Shown piece after piece: positions 10,926 to 45,338 of a DNA stretch of 64,000 nucleotides. Origin of the DNA: Megamonas hypermegale. Lineage in GTDB: Bacteria; Bacillota; Negativicutes; Selenomonadales; Selenomonadaceae. Under the pieces are notes generated by a model. That model did no database searches. It was not told the DNA's origin and worked only from the letters and a program-made list of their open reading frames with translations. Position 1 is the stretch's first letter, and each line of letters begins with the position of its first letter. A program made the position numbers and the translations under genes. The stretch spans positions 1,922,001 through 1,986,000 of the forward strand of contig NZ_LT906446.1 of assembly GCF_900187035.1 (NCBI RefSeq), in the 5' to 3' direction.

Positions 10926-12044
10926 TTACATGGATTTTGTTCTAACAGGTGTAACTACATAGGTAAAATTACTATTATTTTCTTCTCTTATAGATGCTGT
11001 AGTTAATGGTTGATTAAATGAAAAAATAAAGTTTTCATTTTCAATAGCTTTTAATACATCCATAATGTATTTTGCATTAAATGAAATATTTATACCAGGG
11101 CCTTCTATTTGAACTTTAATTGTTTCTTCTGCTTTACCAATATTAGGGTTATCAGAAGAAATTCGTACTCTATCATCAATAAATTCAAAATGAATAATAT
11201 TATAATCTTCAGAACGAGAAATTAAAGATACACGGTCTAATGCTGATTGGAATTCACTTTTATTTATTATCACATTTGTTTTAAATTCTTTTGGAATAAC
11301 TCTATTATAATCTGGGAATTGACCTTCTATTAAACGAGATATTACATAAATATTTTCGTAAGAAAAGCTTATTTTATTATGTGTGCAAGATATTTTAACA
11401 TCTTCTGGTATATCTGAATTAAAAATGTGGATAAATTCGTTCAAAATTTTAGCAGGTATTATTATTTTTAAATTATCGTTAGTTAAATTACCTATATTTT
11501 CACGAATTAATGCTAATCTGTGCATATTTGTTGCAGCCATAACAATATTATTATTATTAATATCGATTAAGCATCCAGTGAATACAGGTCTAGATTCATC
11601 TGTTGAACAAGCAAATGATGTTTTTTTAATAAAATTTAAAAATACATTATTTTTTAATGTGAAATTTATTTGTCCTTGTAATTTTTCTATTATTGGGAAA
11701 TCAGTTGCTTGCATATTTAATAAATTAAATTGAGCTGCATTGGAAGAAATATTAACAGAATTATCTGTTTCATTATTTTTTATTTCTACATAATCTCCAG
11801 GTAATGTTCTGATGACTTCGTATAGATATTTTCCTGGTAATACGATAGTGCCTTCTTCATTTATGTTTGCATCAATTTTGCATGTAATGCTTAGTTCATA
11901 ATCTGTTGCTTTTAATTCTAGTGTATTTTCACTAGCTTTGATGTAGATACCAGATAAAATAGGCATTTGTGGTCTACTTGGTATGGCTTTTAATACTGTT
12001 TGTATTGCTTGTGTAAGTTCTCTTTTTTCACAGGTAATTTTCAT
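10926..12044 (-). CDS. dnaN: DNA polymerase III beta subunit (sliding clamp)
   Basis: 372 residues, standard clamp length, with three repeated clamp domains. Diagnostic blocks are MKITCEKRELTQAIQ at the N-terminus, LPGKYLYEVIRTLP, ATNMHRLAL, GQFPDYNRVIP and the C-terminal YVVTPVRTK (usually Y.(I/V)(M/T)P.R). It forms the ring that tethers polymerase III to DNA. It lies directly left of the origin, with its start adjoining the AT-rich unwinding segment. Its operon continues with recF and the DciA-like gene. Confidence 0.98.
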   Translation of the reverse strand: MKITCEKRELTQAIQTVLKAIPSRPQMPILSGIYIKASENTLELKATDYELSITCKIDANINEEGTIVLPGKYLYEVIRTLPGDYVEIKNNETDNSVNISSNAAQFNLLNMQATDFPIIEKLQGQINFTLKNNVFLNFIKKTSFACSTDESRPVFTGCLIDINNNNIVMAATNMHRLALIRENIGNLTNDNLKIIIPAKILNEFIHIFNSDIPEDVKISCTHNKISFSYENIYVISRLIEGQFPDYNRVIPKEFKTNVIINKSEFQSALDRVSLISRSEDYNIIHFEFIDDRVRISSDNPNIGKAEETIKVQIEGPGINISFNAKYIMDVLKAIENENFIFSFNQPLTTASIREENNSNFTYVVTPVRTKSM

Positions 12045-12300
12045 AAGTTATCCACTCCTATATTATATAATACTATTATTATTTATATATTTATATTTTA
12101 GTAGTAGTAGTAGTAGGTGGCTGTGGATATGTTGATAAGTGGCATCAAGCCTTGTACTGTCTGGGCTGATGCCTGTGTATAACTTGTGGATAATTTGTGA
12201 CAACTTATCCACATATCCACAATTGATTCTAGTTTATACACTTATCCACAGTTTATCCACAAGGTTATCCATAGGTTTATCCACAACCTTGTTGATATCT
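12045..12300. other. Chromosomal replication origin (oriC) between dnaA and dnaN
   Basis: The gap holds five consensus DnaA boxes (TTATCCACA or complement): 12185-12193 (-), 12205-12213, 12242-12250, 12253-12261 and 12277-12285 (+). One-mismatch boxes lie at 12122-12130, 12130-12138, 12174-12182, 12213-12221 and 12265-12273. On the dnaN side is an AT-only stretch (12061-12098) fitting a DNA unwinding element, bordered by a DnaA-trio. A GC-rich hairpin, GGCATC/GATGCC with inner AGCC/GGCT, lies at 12141-12173 between the two box groups. DnaA should assemble here to open the duplex. The gene context (divergent dnaA and rpmH operons) agrees. Confidence 0.94.
12099..12138 (+). other. DnaA-trio unwinding module of oriC
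   Basis: Six TAG trinucleotides at 12099-12116 read as 3'-GAT-5' repeats when followed leftward from the adjacent DnaA boxes. They are separated by the short GC-rich spacer GTGGC from TGTGGATAT (12122-12130) and TGTTGATAA (12130-12138). This is the order described for the basal unwinding system of Bacillus subtilis: two DnaA boxes, GC cluster, DnaA-trios, AT-rich DUE. A DnaA filament would grow from the boxes onto the trio strand. Confidence 0.85.
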
Positions 12301-13770
12301 TTATGCATGATTAATTTGTTCACGTAATTTATTAATTGTTTTAGCGATTTCTGTATTTTCCATGTATTGTTTTTTTATTTTATCGCATGCATGCATTACT
12401 GTAGTATGGTCTCTACCCCCAAAAGTTTTACCAATGCGAGGCAATGAAGACGATGTTAATTCTCGACATAGATACATCGCAATTTGGCGAGGAAAGGCAA
12501 TACTGCGATTGCGTTTTTTTCCATTTAAATCTGCTATGGTTATTTTAAAATAATTTGCCACTGTTTCTTGAATAGAATTTATATTGATTATTTTTGTATT
12601 TTGTTTCGGTGGATTTTTTATAGCTATATGTTGTAATACATTCATAGCAAATTGATTTGTGATAGGATAATGGCAAAGTGATGCACGAGCGACGACTTGT
12701 GTTAAAGCGCCTTCTAGTTCGCGTACGTTGTTGTCGATATGACTAGCGATATATGCCATTACGTCATCAGGTACATTGTAGTTTTCTAATATAGATTTTT
12801 TCTTTAAAATAGCTATACGTGTTTCTAAATCTGGTGCTTGAACATCAGCAATAAGTCCACCTTCAAAACGAGAACAAAGTCTATCTTGTAGTTTTTCTAT
12901 TTCTTTAGGTGGTCTATCACTTGATAAGATGATTTGTTTATTTGCATCTTTTAGGGCATTGAAGGTGTGGAAAAATTCTTCTTGAACACGTTCTTTATTA
13001 GCTAAAAATTGAATGTCATCAACGAGTAAAACATCTACATTGCGATATTTTTGACGAAATGCCTCAGGTTTTCCATCTTTGATGGAGTTGATTAATTCAT
13101 TGATAAATTTTTCGCTAGAAATATATAAAACCCTTTTTTGCGGTTGGTTTTGTAGTATTTTATGACCGATAGCGTGCATTAAATGTGTTTTTCCTAGGCC
13201 TACTCCACCATACATGAAAAAAGGATTATAATTTTTAGCTGGATTTTCTGCAACAGCAAGTGCTGCAGCATGGGCAAAGCTATTGGAATTACCTGTAACG
13301 AAAGTATCAAAGGTATATTTTGGATTAAGCGTAGATTTATCACCAGGATTTATAGGCATTGGTGTTTCTGCCGTATCATATTGGATAGCTTCAGTTAAGG
13401 TCGGTTGTATTAAGTCGTTTGCTTTTTTCTTTGTCCGAGTGCGACGATTTCTTTGCTTGATTTGTTTGAGCTGTTGATTCATTAATTCTTTTTGAGTATC
13501 ATCGTCGTTTTGTTCTTCTTGAGCTATGCTTATTGTAATTTCTACGTGATTTTGCGTTACTTCATAGCAAGAGTCTTTTAAAAATGGAAGATAGCGGCTT
13601 TTAACGCGGTCTTTAGAATAATCATTAGGTGCTAAAAGCTCTAGTCTGTCATTTGTCAATTTTATAGGTTTTAATGGTTTTATATAATTTTGACAAACGT
13701 GCTCAGCTAGAGATTGTTGAATATTTTTTAAAATTTTTTCCCAGGTCAATTGAAGCTCAAGATTGGTCAT
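12301..13770 (-). CDS. dnaA: Chromosomal replication initiator DnaA
   Basis: 489 residues. An N-terminal DnaB-interaction domain (WEKILKNIQQSL) is followed by a long Lys/Arg/Gln-rich linker. The AAA+ domain starts at NPKYTFDTFVTGNSN with Walker A GGVGLGKTH and Walker B VLLVDDIQFL, plus arginine-finger region LCSRFEGG. Domain IV ends with the DNA-binding signature GGRDHTTVMHACDKI. It initiates replication at the DnaA boxes on both sides of its own gene and likely represses itself through the upstream boxes. AAAGGA lies about 11 nt before ATG 13770. I could not resolve its promoter. Confidence 0.98.
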   Translation of the reverse strand: MTNLELQLTWEKILKNIQQSLAEHVCQNYIKPLKPIKLTNDRLELLAPNDYSKDRVKSRYLPFLKDSCYEVTQNHVEITISIAQEEQNDDDTQKELMNQQLKQIKQRNRRTRTKKKANDLIQPTLTEAIQYDTAETPMPINPGDKSTLNPKYTFDTFVTGNSNSFAHAAALAVAENPAKNYNPFFMYGGVGLGKTHLMHAIGHKILQNQPQKRVLYISSEKFINELINSIKDGKPEAFRQKYRNVDVLLVDDIQFLANKERVQEEFFHTFNALKDANKQIILSSDRPPKEIEKLQDRLCSRFEGGLIADVQAPDLETRIAILKKKSILENYNVPDDVMAYIASHIDNNVRELEGALTQVVARASLCHYPITNQFAMNVLQHIAIKNPPKQNTKIININSIQETVANYFKITIADLNGKKRNRSIAFPRQIAMYLCRELTSSSLPRIGKTFGGRDHTTVMHACDKIKKQYMENTEIAKTINKLREQINHA

Positions 13771-13851
13771 TAAAGAGGTCCTTTCTGTAAAATATAACGT
13801 TGAATTGTCCTACAATTTGGGAAAATTCATTGTTTTTCTGTAAGTAGCAAT

Positions 13852-13881
13852 ATATCCACAGGTTTAAAAACCTGTGGATAA
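13852..13881. promoter_or_regulatory. DnaA-box inverted repeat upstream of dnaA
   Basis: A 13-bp perfect inverted repeat (13853-13865 and 13868-13880) with a 2-base loop contains two head-to-head DnaA boxes: ATATCCACA 13852-13860 and TGTGGATAA 13873-13881. Such a site suits autoregulation of dnaA or the second half of a bipartite origin, as in Bacillus. AT-rich sequence follows on the rpmH side (13882-13935). Confidence 0.75.
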
Positions 13882-13938
13882 GTGTATAAATATCTTATCA
13901 AAATGGTTATAATATATCAATAAGTATTTTGAAATCAG

Positions 13939-13967
13939 TTGACACGAAAAGTGCAGTAGTCTATAAT
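13939..13967 (+). promoter_or_regulatory. Consensus sigma-A promoter for the rpmH operon
   Basis: TTGACA (13939-13944), a 17-bp spacer and TATAAT (13962-13967): an exact consensus promoter, as expected for a highly expressed ribosomal-protein operon. It implies a transcribed leader of about 225 nt before rpmH. Confidence 0.85.
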
Positions 13968-13974
13968 TCTAATA

Positions 13975-14198
13975 GCTATATTTGAAATATTACAACTGTA
14001 ACTGTACTGATTGTATCCAAAGTGTTGTAAAACCTTTAACTAGCTATAGTGATATAAAGCATATCTATAAAGTAAACGGAACGCTAAATTTCCTGTCTTT
14101 AGGTATGAGTGAGATTTGCAATGGCTAATATTTATTGCATCTTGCATCTAGGACAGTTATCAGTTTATCGATTGTGGTGTTTTAAGGAGGTGTAAAGA
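13975..14198 (+). other. Long, possibly structured leader of rpmH-rnpA
   Basis: There is no gene between the promoter and the rpmH start. Complementary segments CTGTC 14093-14097 and GACAG 14152-14156 enclose a hairpin TGCAAT 14117-14122 / ATTGCA 14134-14139, ending 40 nt before the ribosome-binding site. Pairing is seen by eye only; a regulatory role is inference. Confidence 0.3.
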
Positions 14199-40054: not shown

Positions 40055-41538
40055 CAAATAAATTAAGAAAATCAGTATTACAATCAGCTATACAAGGTAA
40101 ATTGACAGAGCAATTAGCTACAGATGATAAGATAGAAGATTTATTAAAAGCTATAAAGGAAGAAAAGGAACGCTTAATCAAAGAAAAAAAGATAAAAAAA
40201 CAAAAACCATTGCCAGAAATAACAGAAGAAGAAATACCATTTGAAATACCTAAAAATTGGAGATGGGTAAGATTAGATAATATATGTATATATTTACAAA
40301 GAGGAAAATCACCAACATATTCAGATATAAAAAAATATCCTGTTGTATCTCAAAAGTGTAATCAGTGGAGTGGGTTTACTTTAGAGCCAGCAAAATATTT
40401 ATCACCAGAAGTATTAGAAAAATATTCTGATGAAAGATATTTAAAGAAACATGATATATTAATAAACTCTACAGGATTAGGTACAGTTGGAAGGGTATGT
40501 TTATTTAAAACAGATTCAAAATATCCTATTATAGTAGCAGATAGTCATGTTACAGTTGTGCGTAGTACGCGTTTAATAAGTGAGATATATATAAAGTATT
40601 TTTTATCTTCTCCACATATTCAAGATAATATAGAAGATATGTGTAGTGGTTCAACTAAACAGAAAGAACTGGCATTGAATACAATAAAAAATTTATTAAT
40701 ACCTTTGCCATCATTAGCAGAACAAAAGCGTATAGTAGAAAAGCTTGATAATGTTTTGGCTGATATAGATGAATTAAAAGCTAATGAAGAAAAATTATCT
40801 ATACTACAAAAGAATTTCCCTGATAAGTTAAAAAAATCTATATTACAATCAGCTATACAAGGAAATTTGACGGAACAATTAGCTACAGATGATAAAGTAG
40901 AAGATTTATTAAAGGCGATAAAAGAAGAAAAAGAACGCTTAATCAAAGAAAAAAAGATAAAAAAACAAAAACCATTGCCAGAGATAACAGAAGAAGAGAT
41001 ACCATTTGCTATACCTGAAAATTGGAAATGGGTAAGATTAGGTGAAATAGGAAAAATTATAGGTGGAGGAACACCAAAAACAACAAATTTAGAGTATTGG
41101 CAAAATGGTAAAATAGCATGGATTACTCCAGCGGATATGAAAAATGTTAAAGGAAAATATATATCGTATGGAAAAAAATATATAACTTTATTAGGTTTGG
41201 AAAAATCTTCAGCACAATTATTGCCAAAAGGTAGTATTCTTTTTTCAAGTAGAGCGCCAATTGGATATGTTGCCATAGCAAAAGAAGAAGTATCTACTAA
41301 TCAAGGATTTAAATCGGTAGTGCCTTTTTCTTTAAATTTATCACTTTATTTGTATTATGTTTTATTAGGTATGGTAGATATAATAAAAAAATTAGGAACA
41401 GGAACAACATTTAAAGAAGTATCTGGAAGTGTTGTAGAAAAAATATTAGTGCCATTGCCACCATTAGCAGAACAAAAGCGTATAGTAGAAAAGTTAGATA
41501 AGCTTTTAGCTGATATAGAAGAATTAAAGATAGAATAA
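40048..41538 (+). CDS. hsdS: Type I specificity subunit with duplicated conserved regions
   Basis: 496 residues. Two target-recognition domains, each introduced by the same ~72-residue segment: KLRKSVLQSAIQGKLTEQLA...EITEEEIPFEIPKNWRWVRL (40060-40275) and its near copy (40825-41040). Each is followed by a shared coil LAEQKRIVEKLDNVLADI (about 40711-40777 and 41461-41527). The layout is therefore CR-TRD1-CR-CR-TRD2-CR, with each TRD reading half of a bipartite target. The DNA of the repeats is nearly identical, allowing recombination between halves or with other hsdS copies. No second hsdS or recombinase is present nearby. A terminator follows at once. Confidence 0.95.
   Translation: MLANKLRKSVLQSAIQGKLTEQLATDDKIEDLLKAIKEEKERLIKEKKIKKQKPLPEITEEEIPFEIPKNWRWVRLDNICIYLQRGKSPTYSDIKKYPVVSQKCNQWSGFTLEPAKYLSPEVLEKYSDERYLKKHDILINSTGLGTVGRVCLFKTDSKYPIIVADSHVTVVRSTRLISEIYIKYFLSSPHIQDNIEDMCSGSTKQKELALNTIKNLLIPLPSLAEQKRIVEKLDNVLADIDELKANEEKLSILQKNFPDKLKKSILQSAIQGNLTEQLATDDKVEDLLKAIKEEKERLIKEKKIKKQKPLPEITEEEIPFAIPENWKWVRLGEIGKIIGGGTPKTTNLEYWQNGKIAWITPADMKNVKGKYISYGKKYITLLGLEKSSAQLLPKGSILFSSRAPIGYVAIAKEEVSTNQGFKSVVPFSLNLSLYLYYVLLGMVDIIKKLGTGTTFKEVSGSVVEKILVPLPPLAEQKRIVEKLDKLLADIEELKIE
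40060..41040 (+). repeat. 216-bp direct repeat inside hsdS (two copies)
   Basis: Copies at 40060-40275 and 40825-41040, 765 bp apart, differ at a limited number of positions, mostly silent or conservative; a second pair of about 70 bp lies at 40711-40777 and 41461-41527. Confidence 0.9.
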
Positions 41539-41539
41539 T

Positions 41540-41575
41540 AAAAATACCGCATATTATTATGCGGTATTTTTACAA
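41540..41575 (+). terminator. Terminator between hsdS and the KAP NTPase gene
   Basis: AAAAATACCGCATA (41540-41553) pairs with TATGCGGTATTTTT (41558-41571) around TTAT. Only 23 bp remain before the next start codon. Confidence 0.88.
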
Positions 41576-41594
41576 AGAAAGGATTGATTGGTGA

Positions 41595-44198
41595 GTGAAC
41601 TATTTACGAGATTTATGGAAAAAGGACTTTTTTGTTAATGTTATAATATGGTCAATTTTAATATATTTAGCTATCTTTTTTGTAAATAGATATAATTTGA
41701 TAAGTAAATTAATAAATATGTTTACACTTTTTATTGCGGGTTTAGTATTTTTATTAATAGTGGTAATGTGTTTTTCAAAGTTAAAACTTATTGATGCATA
41801 TAAAGTAAAATCAATAAATATAATAGATAGATTGGCAGGAATAGGTTTTTTTATAAGTTTATTTAGTATGGTTTATACTATCGTGTATGAGAAAGAAATA
41901 TATAAATTTTGTTTAGAATGTATTTTAATGGGTATTTCATTAAAAATATTAAGAGATAAGGAAAGTGCTTTTCAAAATATTATACTTAAAAGAGAAAATG
42001 AATGTAGTAATTTGATAGATTTAAAAGATTTATATAATAATGATATTAGTAATAGTATTATAAACAATGAGGTAAAATATTTATTAATAGATGAAAATGA
42101 TGTTGATTATGATTTTTTACATAGAGATATAATAATTGAGCATATCTATAATAGTATACTAAATACTAGAGCTAATAACAGTTTTGTTATAGGTATAAAT
42201 GGAGCATGGGGTTCTGGAAAAACAACAACCGTTAATATAGTGAAGAAAAAAATAAAAAGTAATATAAATGATAAAGAACTTATATTAAGTGATTTTAGTC
42301 CTTGGATATACGATAATCCTCAAAATATGATGATAGGATTACTTAAATCTATTTTAGTAGAAGCAAATATCGCAAGTAATCCACTTGAACATGAAAAAAT
42401 ATTTAAATCATTAGTTAATGTAATATTTAAAAAGGTAGGATTTGACAATACTTTTGTAAATAACTTTTTTTATAATTTTGATACTGTTGAAAAAATCAAA
42501 AATGAACTTAATGATTTTTTGGAATTTAATCAAAAAAGAGTTGTATTATTCATTGATAATTTAGAACGAGCAGAAGCAGATAATATAATTTTTTTGTTTA
42601 AGTTAATCGGGCAAGTTTTTGACTTAAAACGAATAACGTATGTAATTATTTATGATGAGGATAGATTAAAGGATGTCTTTTCTGATAAATTGAAAATAGA
42701 TTATCATTATATTGAGAAAATTATCCAACAGAATATATCTGTACCACCTATTCAACAAGAATTATTGTCGAATATATGTAGAGTTTGTATAGAAAGATTG
42801 CTTATATTTTATGGTGAAAGAAATCTAGAAAAATATGAATTAATTGTAAATTTTATAGTATCAGAAGTAAATGATTTAAGAAAGCTAAAGAGATTTTTGA
42901 ATACAGTAGTAACGGAAATTTTTGCTACACAACATTATTTATCAAAGTATACGTTATTTGCATTAAATACAATAAAATTTTTTGATGGGGATATGTATTA
43001 TAATATTTATCAAAATAAGGAATATTTTATAACTACGGATAAACTTTGTGATGTGAGTACAAAACATATGGATATAGATAAAGAAGATAGTAAAAAAGCT
43101 AAAGAGTTATTTGATAAATTAATTAAAGATAAGAACAAGGAATATAAAGATTTGTTATCAGATATGTTTATTGCTGTGCAAAGGTATTTTTCAGGCAAAG
43201 ATATTATTAGTAATAACTATAATGATGTAGATTATGATTTTATAAGAATAAATAAATGTATTTATAGTGGTAAATATTTTGATATATATTTTTCACAAAA
43301 TGAAAATAGATTTTTGGAAATAAATAAAGAAGTTAATGATTTTATAAAATGTATAAATTATATACAAGATGAAAATTTACTATGTGATTTTGTTAGACAA
43401 AAAATAATTGATATTAACATAAAATATGAAAATGATGAATATTTGTGGATTGATAAATTTTTTAGTTATATTAAAAAAAATGATTGTAGTAACGAATTTT
43501 TGATAGTAAAAGTTTTGTATAAAAATATTTTAGAATTAAGTGATGATAAGAATACTTTTAGTAGGAGTTCAAGAAATAGAGTAGGGGACTTTATTATAAT
43601 ATATTTGAGAAATTGCACATTAGAAAAGTTTAATCAGATTGTGGATTTAATGAAAAATGATTATAAAAAATTAAATATAATATATAATATAAAATGTTTA
43701 ATTAGTAATGTTATATCTTATGATGGATTAAAAATATTAGATGTAAATTTTAAAGCTTTAATTATAAATAATATATTTGATAATTTATGTAAAACTATAA
43801 TAGAAAAGAAAATAAATTTATATGATGATAAATATTATAGTAAAAATAATGTATTTATCTTATTAAATAATGTACATGATGAAATGTATTTAAAGGAAAT
43901 AGTTGGACATAATACAGTATATAGATTGTTGAAAGACTTAGTAATAGAAAATGTCAATAATGATAAAGAATATATTTACTATATAGATGAGAAATTATTT
44001 AAAAAGTATATAGTAGGTGAAATGGAAGAGAAAATAGAGTATTATTTAAAAAGAAATCCGCCTAAGACAGAAAGTGAAATAGTTTTGATAAATTTGTATC
44101 ATAAAAGTAGAAATTTATATTATTTAAGTGATAATGAAGATATACCTTTTGATAAAAGTCAAATACGTAGAATAATTCCTATTAAATTTATTGTATAG
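41595..44198 (+). CDS. Membrane-anchored KAP-family P-loop NTPase, putative defence protein
   Basis: 867 residues, GTG start 41595 (AAAGGA about 12 nt upstream; start less certain than most). Four hydrophobic segments (about 12-31, 41-61, 80-98, 102-117) precede the NTPase: Walker A GINGAWGSGKTT (200-211), Walker B VVLFIDNLERAE (316-327), a sensor-like YVIIYDEDRL, and YIEKIIQQNISVPP (372-385), the hallmark tail of KAP NTPases. Classical KAP proteins carry membrane helices inside the P-loop domain; here they come first. The last ~450 residues are unrecognised, rich in Asn, Lys, Ile and Tyr. KAP proteins include phage-exclusion PifA of F. The gene is conspicuously more AT-rich than its neighbours, suggesting recent acquisition, and has no room for a promoter of its own. 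Confidence 0.8.
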   Translation: MNYLRDLWKKDFFVNVIIWSILIYLAIFFVNRYNLISKLINMFTLFIAGLVFLLIVVMCFSKLKLIDAYKVKSINIIDRLAGIGFFISLFSMVYTIVYEKEIYKFCLECILMGISLKILRDKESAFQNIILKRENECSNLIDLKDLYNNDISNSIINNEVKYLLIDENDVDYDFLHRDIIIEHIYNSILNTRANNSFVIGINGAWGSGKTTTVNIVKKKIKSNINDKELILSDFSPWIYDNPQNMMIGLLKSILVEANIASNPLEHEKIFKSLVNVIFKKVGFDNTFVNNFFYNFDTVEKIKNELNDFLEFNQKRVVLFIDNLERAEADNIIFLFKLIGQVFDLKRITYVIIYDEDRLKDVFSDKLKIDYHYIEKIIQQNISVPPIQQELLSNICRVCIERLLIFYGERNLEKYELIVNFIVSEVNDLRKLKRFLNTVVTEIFATQHYLSKYTLFALNTIKFFDGDMYYNIYQNKEYFITTDKLCDVSTKHMDIDKEDSKKAKELFDKLIKDKNKEYKDLLSDMFIAVQRYFSGKDIISNNYNDVDYDFIRINKCIYSGKYFDIYFSQNENRFLEINKEVNDFIKCINYIQDENLLCDFVRQKIIDINIKYENDEYLWIDKFFSYIKKNDCSNEFLIVKVLYKNILELSDDKNTFSRSSRNRVGDFIIIYLRNCTLEKFNQIVDLMKNDYKKLNIIYNIKCLISNVISYDGLKILDVNFKALIINNIFDNLCKTIIEKKINLYDDKYYSKNNVFILLNNVHDEMYLKEIVGHNTVYRLLKDLVIENVNNDKEYIYYIDEKLFKKYIVGEMEEKIEYYLKRNPPKTESEIVLINLYHKSRNLYYLSDNEDIPFDKSQIRRIIPIKFIV

Positions 44199-44383
44199 AT
44201 TAAAAATTAAATTTATAGGTGCAATTCATGTATTTAGATTATTGTTTATAATGATAAAATAGATTTAATTAAAGTATGAAGAAGTGGATAGAAAAAGTAT
44301 AATTTATTAAACTATAGTAAAGTGAAAGAGTTGACAAAAGTCGATAAGAAAAGAAGTAAAAATTTATAAGGAGATGAAGCATT

Positions 44384-44848
44384 TTGATAAAACTAATGTT
44401 TGTATGCCATGGCAATATCTGCCGTTCAACAATGGCTGAATTTGTGATGAAGGATTTAGTGCGTAGAGCGGGTTTGGCGGATAAATTCATTATCAATTCA
44501 TCAGCTACTAGCCGTGAGGAAATAGGCAGTGATATTCACTATGGTACAAAAGCAAAATTGCGTGAAAAGGGCATACCTTATACAAAAAGAAAAGCAGTTC
44601 AAATGACAAAAGCTGATTATGATATGTATGATTATATTATCGTAATGGATAATAACAATTTATATAATTTGAAGTATATAATTGGTGAAGATACTGAGCA
44701 TAAAGTATATAAAATGATGTCTTTTGTTGGTGAAAATCGTGATGTAAAAGACCCTTGGTATACTGGCAATTTTGATGAAACATTTGTAGATATAGATAGA
44801 GGCTGTAGAGCGTTGTTGATGCAGATAGAAAACAATGCAAATATTTGA
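44384..44848 (+). CDS. Low-molecular-weight protein-tyrosine phosphatase
   Basis: 154 residues, TTG start 44384 with AAGGAGATGA 8-10 nt before. The catalytic loop VCHGNICRSTMAE (Cx5R) near residue 8 and the general-acid loop DPWYTGNFDE near 120 are intact. Such enzymes dephosphorylate tyrosine on proteins (for example exopolysaccharide BY-kinases) or low-molecular-weight phosphoarginine; the substrate here is unknown. No kinase or polysaccharide gene adjoins. A MerR-regulator gene follows after 76 bp. Confidence 0.93.
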   Translation: MIKLMFVCHGNICRSTMAEFVMKDLVRRAGLADKFIINSSATSREEIGSDIHYGTKAKLREKGIPYTKRKAVQMTKADYDMYDYIIVMDNNNLYNLKYIIGEDTEHKVYKMMSFVGENRDVKDPWYTGNFDETFVDIDRGCRALLMQIENNANI

Positions 44849-44857
44849 TAATATGTA

Positions 44858-44888
44858 TTGACTTATAGTGCACTTTAAGATGTAGTCT
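44858..44888 (+). promoter_or_regulatory. MerR-type promoter with 19-bp spacer
   Basis: TTGACT (44858-44863) and TAGTCT (44883-44888) are separated by 19 bp. Between them is the near-perfect dyad CTTATAGTG-CACTTTAAG (44862-44879). Over-long spacers with a dyad are the hallmark of MerR-activated promoters, so the downstream regulator probably controls its own gene. Confidence 0.6.
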
Positions 44889-44924
44889 GATATTGACTAG
44901 TTTGGGTAAAAGAGGTTAGTTAAT

Positions 44925-45338
44925 ATGACATATACTATTTCGGAATTTGCAAAAAAATTGGGTTTGACTGCATATACTTTGCGCTATTATGAAAAAGAAG
45001 GGCTATTGCCTTTTGTTGAAAGAATAAATGGCAGGCGTGTGTTTAAAGATGAGGATTTTACTTTAGTGAGAACGCTTATCTGCTTAAAGCATACGGGAAT
45101 GCCTATTCGTGAAATCAAAGAATATATGGATTTATGCCAAAGGGGCGATTGTACTTTAGAGCAAAGGCATAATATCATATTGAAGCAAAAAGATTTGTTA
45201 GAGAAAAAAATATGTTCTTTGCAAAGAAATTTAGAAGTTTTAAAGCATAAAGAAGAGTATTATCAAAAAGCTATTGAAGCTGGTACGGAAAATATAGATG
45301 GTCTGGATGAGATTTTATGGAGAAATGAAAAAGGTTGA
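44925..45338 (+). CDS. MerR-family transcriptional regulator
   Basis: 137 residues. MerR winged-helix N-terminus (TISEFAKKLGLTAYTLRYYEKEGLLPFVERINGRRVF), then a long coiled coil (about 75-115). The length and sequence fit the AdhR/stress-response group, which senses reactive aldehydes or similar compounds, rather than the metal-binding group; a CQRGDC pair at about 70-75 could be redox-active. The effector is unknown. A MerR-type promoter lies just upstream. The stop codon lies within the left arm of the terminator. Confidence 0.88.
   Translation: MTYTISEFAKKLGLTAYTLRYYEKEGLLPFVERINGRRVFKDEDFTLVRTLICLKHTGMPIREIKEYMDLCQRGDCTLEQRHNIILKQKDLLEKKICSLQRNLEVLKHKEEYYQKAIEAGTENIDGLDEILWRNEKG

Follow-up and report, generated by a model that had tools for sequence, protein, structure and literature searches.

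Natural DnaA-trio arrays probably follow the code 3′-N(A or C)N-5′, in which trio 1 has a central A and trios 2 to 6 may carry a central C. On this reading, which we hold with reasonable confidence, the middle-C trios (mostly 3′-GCY-5′, or TCG and CCG on the trio strand) form a conserved and repeatedly evolved second type that makes up three to five of the six trios in seven Lachnospiraceae-like origins. Six would be the preferred array size, and rules that demand a central A would undercount many arrays. The comparison starts from a trio array in a 64,000-nucleotide stretch of the chromosome of Megamonas hypermegale, a member of the Selenomonadaceae (the window). The module that holds this array is very probably the basal unwinding system (BUS) of the chromosome's oriC, and we infer that unwinding takes place there. 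By itself the window element is an ordinary, textbook BUS. The interesting part is the comparative result around it.

The initial annotation of the window described an AT-rich DUE, (TAG)6, GTGGC and two overlapping DnaA boxes, in that order and beside dnaN. A direct reading with script-checked coordinates gives exactly this order (Table 1), and the module sits between dnaA, which ends at 12301, and dnaN, which starts at 12044. The two boxes overlap by 1 bp, at position 12130. About 3e-4 occurrences of (TAG)6 would be expected by chance from the base composition of the window; the 2,230,342-base single-contig genome contains one, and none of the reversed control sequence. Within the window it is the sole six-unit trinucleotide run, the four other runs listed having four units each. 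When the window is scanned by a BUS-like rule, the module gives six exact trios and no other place more than two.

Table 1. Features of the origin region, in window coordinates.
Feature	Position	Strand	Remarks
dnaN	10926..12044	-	372 aa; named from sequence and gene order; downstream anchor
DnaA-box-like TTATCCACT (AGTGGATAA on the dnaN strand)	12048..12056	+	overlaps dnaN ribosome-binding site; far side of DUE
AT-rich DUE (predicted)	12057..12098		93% AT over 42 bp; between trio array and dnaN, directly beyond the trios
DnaA-trio array, six 5′-TAG-3′ (= 3′-GAT-5′)	12099..12116	+	trio 1 = 12114-12116, trio 6 = 12099-12101
G+C-rich 5-bp spacer GTGGC	12117..12121
Trio-proximal DnaA box ATATCCACA	12122..12130	-	1 mismatch to TTATCCACA; position of B. 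subtilis DnaA-box 7
Trio-distal DnaA box TTATCAACA	12130..12138	-	1 mismatch to TTATCCACA; position of B. subtilis DnaA-box 6
Eight further DnaA boxes	12174..12285	12174, 12185 on -; 12205, 12213, 12242, 12253, 12265, 12277 on +	0-1 mismatch
dnaA, cognate initiator	12301..13770	-	489 aa; identity backed by PDB and Pfam matches
Facing DnaA box pair, near-perfect palindrome TATCCACAGGTTTAAAAACCTGTGGATA	13852..13881 (palindrome about 13850-13885)		80-110 bases before dnaA start

Order, orientation and spacing agree with the published BUS, which bears out the proposed likeness to the unwinding module of B. subtilis. BUS boxes lie within two mismatches of the consensus in Table 1, mostly as a tandem pair, and the module has two on the same strand. 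The BUS spacer rule allows up to 16 bp to the first trio, with a peak 10-13 bp from the better box; here the first trio lies 5 bp from the inner box and 13 bp from the outer one. The correct strand carries six central-A trios, where at least three are called for, and the AT-rich stretch begins right past them. Gene order and GC skew place the module in the chromosome origin. Some points count against this reading: the spacer is 5 bp long where 4 is usual in the class; Gly233 of the window DnaA stands in place of Asn196, the residue that touches the third base of a trio in B. subtilis; the genome has no PF07261 match; and another AT-rich region lies upstream of dnaA, although the scan lists no trio array there.

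The other trio-binding residues checked in the cognate DnaA are conserved. In the B. subtilis cryo-EM structure, seven DnaA protomers are arranged on six trios, with two bound to the tandem boxes; two bases per trio enter a pocket, and Asn187 reads the central base via its amine (PMC10721633). Nine of the ten residues checked by alignment are identical: B. subtilis Glu183, Asn187, Ile190, Ile193, Arg202, Lys222, Glu223, Glu228 and Arg264 correspond to Glu220, Asn224, Ile227, Ile230, Arg239, Lys259, Glu260, Glu265 and Arg301 in the window protein. Work on B. subtilis suggests how binding, filament growth, strand choice and opening would proceed at the window module. Two DnaA-ATP molecules would bind the overlapping boxes (12122-12138). 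Over the spacer, their AAA+ domains would build the first pocket and take hold of two trio 1 bases on the plus strand, G at 12116 and A at 12115. More subunits would join 3′ to 5′ along this strand, each covering one TAG, until trio 6 (12099) is reached. The stretching of the strand would open the adjoining AT-rich DUE (12057-12098) towards dnaN, and the helicase would be loaded there.

GC skew switches sign at about 11-12 kb of the window. Across the genome, sampled as 20 spaced 10-kb stretches, the skew is positive in 9/9 stretches from 2.03 to 0.72 Mb via the contig ends (three barely, at 0.004, 0.020 and 0.028) and negative in 11/11 from 0.82 to 1.91 Mb. The module, at 1.934 Mb, coincides with one switch, and the second is about half a genome away. 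This skew pattern locates the predicted chromosome origin at the module. Elsewhere in the window, positions of about 41000-45000 have a GC content of 0.20-0.24 and a GC skew of up to 0.47, unlike their surroundings, and a similar patch occurs at 160-170 kb of the genome (L223).

A different role for the array and boxes would be control of dnaN transcription, or marking of a strand for DnaD, with opening elsewhere, such as upstream of dnaA. A DnaA box does lie over the dnaN ribosome-binding site, two facing boxes lie upstream of dnaA, and B. subtilis has a DnaD element, made of pairs of 5′-TnnT-3′, on the strand that faces the trios (PMC10201434); the T's of TnnT are, in our own reading, the middle T's of neighbouring CTA triplets. 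However, the window genome has no match to PF07261, the DnaD family (B. subtilis and L. lactis controls match), and only 36/220 genomes of its class, the Negativicutes, have one (best 49 bits), yet all 131 class genomes compared have the array. Across the class, CGN is frequent at triplets 4 and 5, which often breaks the TnnT pattern on the opposite strand, and the BUS-like scan of the window lists no trio array upstream of dnaA. We therefore consider it very unlikely that opening occurs elsewhere and that the module mainly serves dnaN or DnaD. DnaD is rejected as the cause of array conservation in this genome and is an unlikely cause in the class as a whole. Since PF07261 has no match here, the opposite-strand element is unlikely to be used, and helicase loading after opening probably differs from that in B. 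subtilis.

The surroundings of the module offer a few further observations. The second genome of the genus carries the box-like sequence at the dnaN ribosome-binding site unchanged. As a general feature it was rejected: a box within one mismatch occurs there in 3/51 class genomes, two of which are the window's genus. The palindrome upstream of dnaA is a candidate autoregulatory site and a candidate upstream half of a bipartite origin, and the region around it (13771-14180) is 70% AT. On the dnaA strand, a strong hairpin at 12138-12176, immediately upstream of the BUS box pair, has a predicted RNA energy of -15.5 kcal/mol (z -3.95) and can also fold in the sister genome, where its letters have changed. 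A hairpin at this place is not a class feature, as 13/131 genomes fall below z -2 against 39/131 at a control position.

The module itself recurs across the class genomes examined. The class sample consisted of the dnaA 3′ regions of 131 genomes, 51 from gathered loci and 80 fetched by place from the class genomes with a DnaA match (204/220). It is a convenience sample, and 21 of its genomes entered via the TAGTAGTAG pattern, which requires three TAGs near a box; figures are also given without them (n = 110). A position matrix trained on 83 regions found the module downstream of dnaA in 131/131 genomes, every one above the best of 262 shuffles. Tallies were unchanged with an anchor of boxes, spacer and trio 1 only, which ignores triplets 2-6 but was itself derived from the class. 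Read on the box strand, where CTA is the trio 3′-GAT-5′, CTA occupies triplets 1 to 9 in 121, 99, 115, 13, 37, 124, 0, 1 and 4 of the 131 genomes, and in 100, 78, 95, 12, 26, 104, 0, 1 and 0 of the 110. The usual class array thus comprises six triplets, with CTA at triplet 6 in 124/131 genomes and at triplet 7 in none. Under a strict run rule ([C/T/A][T/G][A/G] from trio 1), the array is exactly six long in 103/131 class genomes, 31/73 arrays of a phylum set (a) and 23/60 of a second set (b), both described below. Six triplets are near-fixed in the class and merely the commonest size elsewhere. The class figure agrees with the B. subtilis structure, in which seven protomers engage six trios. 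The spacer is 4 bp in 129/131 class genomes; it is 5 bp in the window and the other genome of its genus alone among the class genomes examined, and outside the class a few set (a) rows share this length. The step between the boxes is 8 bp (1-bp overlap) in 116 class genomes and 9 bp in 15.

This conservation bears on whether (TAG)6 is a microsatellite, produced by replication slippage and placed beside the boxes by accident or neutral expansion. It is a perfect trinucleotide repeat that the genome holds once, as a microsatellite might be. However, the triplet count hardly varies across the class, and the array of the sister genome is likewise six triplets long and differs by one substitution, where slippage would alter length. 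A microsatellite would be expected to vary in unit number; here six units are the rule in a comparison between class genomes. Because all 131 class genomes have a six-triplet array, the window's perfect array is not a product of slippage; we give the microsatellite explanation almost no credence. The genus pair fits the reading of the array as part of a BUS: boxes and trios are nearly unchanged, the array differing by one base in trio 4, whereas the remaining intergenic region has diverged.

All six triplets are CTA in the window alone within the class, and five of six are CTA in 26 genomes. The initial annotation had called the window trios more regular than those of B. subtilis. The regularity holds against 263 other arrays, none of which is CTA at six of six, a set that does not include B. 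subtilis; among the 264 arrays in total (131 + 73 + 60), only the window's is canonical throughout. This regularity is probably not functionally special, because an origin of B. subtilis in which every one of the six trios is 3′-GA-5′ is reported to be functional (PMC10721633). In the six-triplet module a central C may replace the A of triplets 2-6, and the window array stands at the fully canonical extreme.

Some loci drew attention during sampling and lie outside this picture. The three-TAGs-near-box pattern matched 28 of 300 class genomes, and the reversed pattern 5. Ten of 141 gathered loci were dropped, five for lack of dnaN and five as pattern matches without dnaA or dnaN; neither gene is present at the pattern-brought loci L113, L121, L122, L134 and L140. 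The matches in L121 and its close homologue L122 lie inside an apparent amino-acid/sodium symporter gene, and were rejected as origins and put down to chance. L134 (G136:C153, 48446-48474) has BUS-like boxes, a GC gap and CTA triplets in a 3-kb stretch without dnaA or dnaN from a 5.9-Mb genome of family f23, and may be a second replicon or an origin that has moved. L140 (G033:C206, a 4,095-base contig) holds a second BUS-like array (TAGTAGCCGTAGTAGTAG, GGCC, boxes) beside the genome's own module, and may be contamination or a plasmid.

The usual departure of the window's relatives from the canonical array is a C instead of an A in the middle of triplet 4 or 5. Over triplets 1-6 of the class, on the trio strand, the middle base is A or C in 775/786 cases (A 606, C 169, T or G 11), and in 652/660 without the pattern-brought genomes. 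A middle C occurs at triplets 2, 3, 4, 5 and 6 in 20, 8, 54, 82 and 5 genomes and never at triplet 1, which belongs to the anchor. The preference belongs to the array and not its flanks: C makes up 164/174 of the non-A middles in triplets 2-5 versus 7/271 in flanking triplets 8-11. A pairing rule in which a central C demands a G first was rejected. It appeared at triplet 4 in the class (45/54 versus 17/73) and was absent in the phylum set and in set (b).

The same preference is found outside the class. Set (a) came from the 98 non-class genomes in an even phylum draw, of which 97 were scored (G383, with dnaA at a contig end, was skipped; G343 offered only 213 bases). Set (b) comprised 73 further loci not evidently of the class, which may share species with set (a). 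For both, scoring used the anchor without triplets 2-6, and the null for set (a) was 388 shuffles. In set (a), 73/97 regions scored above the best shuffle, and the middles of triplets 2-5 were A 245, C 31, T 8 and G 8, against 20 C among 175 non-A middles in the flanks (odds ratio 15, p = 3e-13, a value that ignores shared descent). A reverse-strand control passed the threshold of 12.8 in 4/97 cases (12.9 to 25.3); 24/97 regions fell below the threshold, and rows L266, L271 and L328 are visibly misplaced. In set (b), 60/73 loci scored above the null, with middles of A 201, C 32, T 4 and G 3, against 12/133 C in the flanks (odds ratio 46). Counting distinct 18-mers only changes these results little. 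A middle T or G in at least one of trios 2-6 occurs in 11/131 class arrays, 21/73 of set (a) and 16/60 of set (b), so outside the class the A/C rule is a strong bias and not a law. Seven Lachnospiraceae-like origins of set (b) (L049, L062, L068, L075, L079, L080 and L081) carry the high counts of middle C noted at the outset; the array of L080 is CTA.AGG.CGG.CGA.AGG.CGG. In a 111-row DnaA tree built with FastTree from the class loci and set (b), at least 16 changes are needed to explain where a middle-C trio is present (shuffled mean 36.5), and 5-15 for each position. This many changes indicates that the middle-C trio arose or was lost many times.

These counts link an in vitro observation to natural origins. 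PMC10721633 reports that a C at the centre of trio 1, opposite an abasic site, gives strand separation like A, and that B. subtilis with C in trios 1-3 grows faster than with G or T. A and C are the two amine-bearing bases, so a preference for them over G or T in nature is what a rule of reading by the amine predicts. The A/C bias is natural evidence for the amine-recognition rule from B. subtilis biochemistry (PMC10721633). For other DnaA proteins, that study only 'raises the possibility' of a range of usable sequences, C included, and its Introduction, Results and Discussion report no natural survey of middle-C trios. Among the listed titles and abstract beginnings on DnaA-trios and, since 2023, on the basal unwinding system, we found no description of natural middle-C trios, subscription papers and preprints lying outside that search, and a 2026 review still gives the motif as NAN (PMC13220808). 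The published BUS survey, which found a BUS in 1,755/2,070 origins and left 15% without one, required central-A trios as (.A.){3,} (PMC8287927). The run of central-A trios from trio 1 is shorter than three in 30/131 class arrays, 12/73 of set (a) and 14/60 of set (b). If the A-or-C code is true, origin-prediction rules based on a central A need correcting, and it becomes testable why arrays have six triplets and why C is commonest at triplets 4 and 5 in the class. The window supplies a clearly defined predicted unwinding site, strand and direction included, and a naturally all-canonical array to compare with mixed ones.

The absence of DnaD may have eased the change to a middle C in the Negativicutes, as TnnT would fix a T opposite the central A. 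PF07261 matches in 72/101 genomes of the phylum draw. Phylum arrays with a middle-C trio number 9/19 where PF07261 has no match, 8/19 where the match is weak and 8/35 where it is strong (60 bits or more). This is a weak trend (none versus strong, Fisher p = 0.076; one-sided rank test p = 0.019), and middle-C trios also occur in genomes with DnaD.

Finally, the window module can be set beside known systems. The BUS of B. subtilis (DnaA-boxes 6/7, a GC-rich gap and six trios; PMC6669920, PMC10721633) is alike in its two co-oriented boxes and GC-rich gap, in trios that read 3′-GAT-5′ away from the boxes, and in an AT-rich DUE and a position downstream of dnaA. The window differs in its six canonical trios, its 5-bp spacer and a genome without a PF07261 match. 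Between dnaA and dnaN, Bacillus sp. 28A-2 (L011) has this module too, its boxes likewise overlapping by 1 bp. The 131 Negativicutes share the place, box arrangement and six triplets with the window; 118 of them have at least one middle-C trio at positions 2-6, whereas the window and its sister genome have none and a 5-bp spacer. In Clostridioides difficile, the origin is bipartite, as that of the window may be, and the trios of oriC2 (CACCTACTACTATTACTACTATGA) adjoin the DUE downstream of dnaA (PMC7561715). Its fourth triplet is TTA, and opening was tested there, P1-nuclease opening being mapped to its trio/DUE region (PMC7561715).
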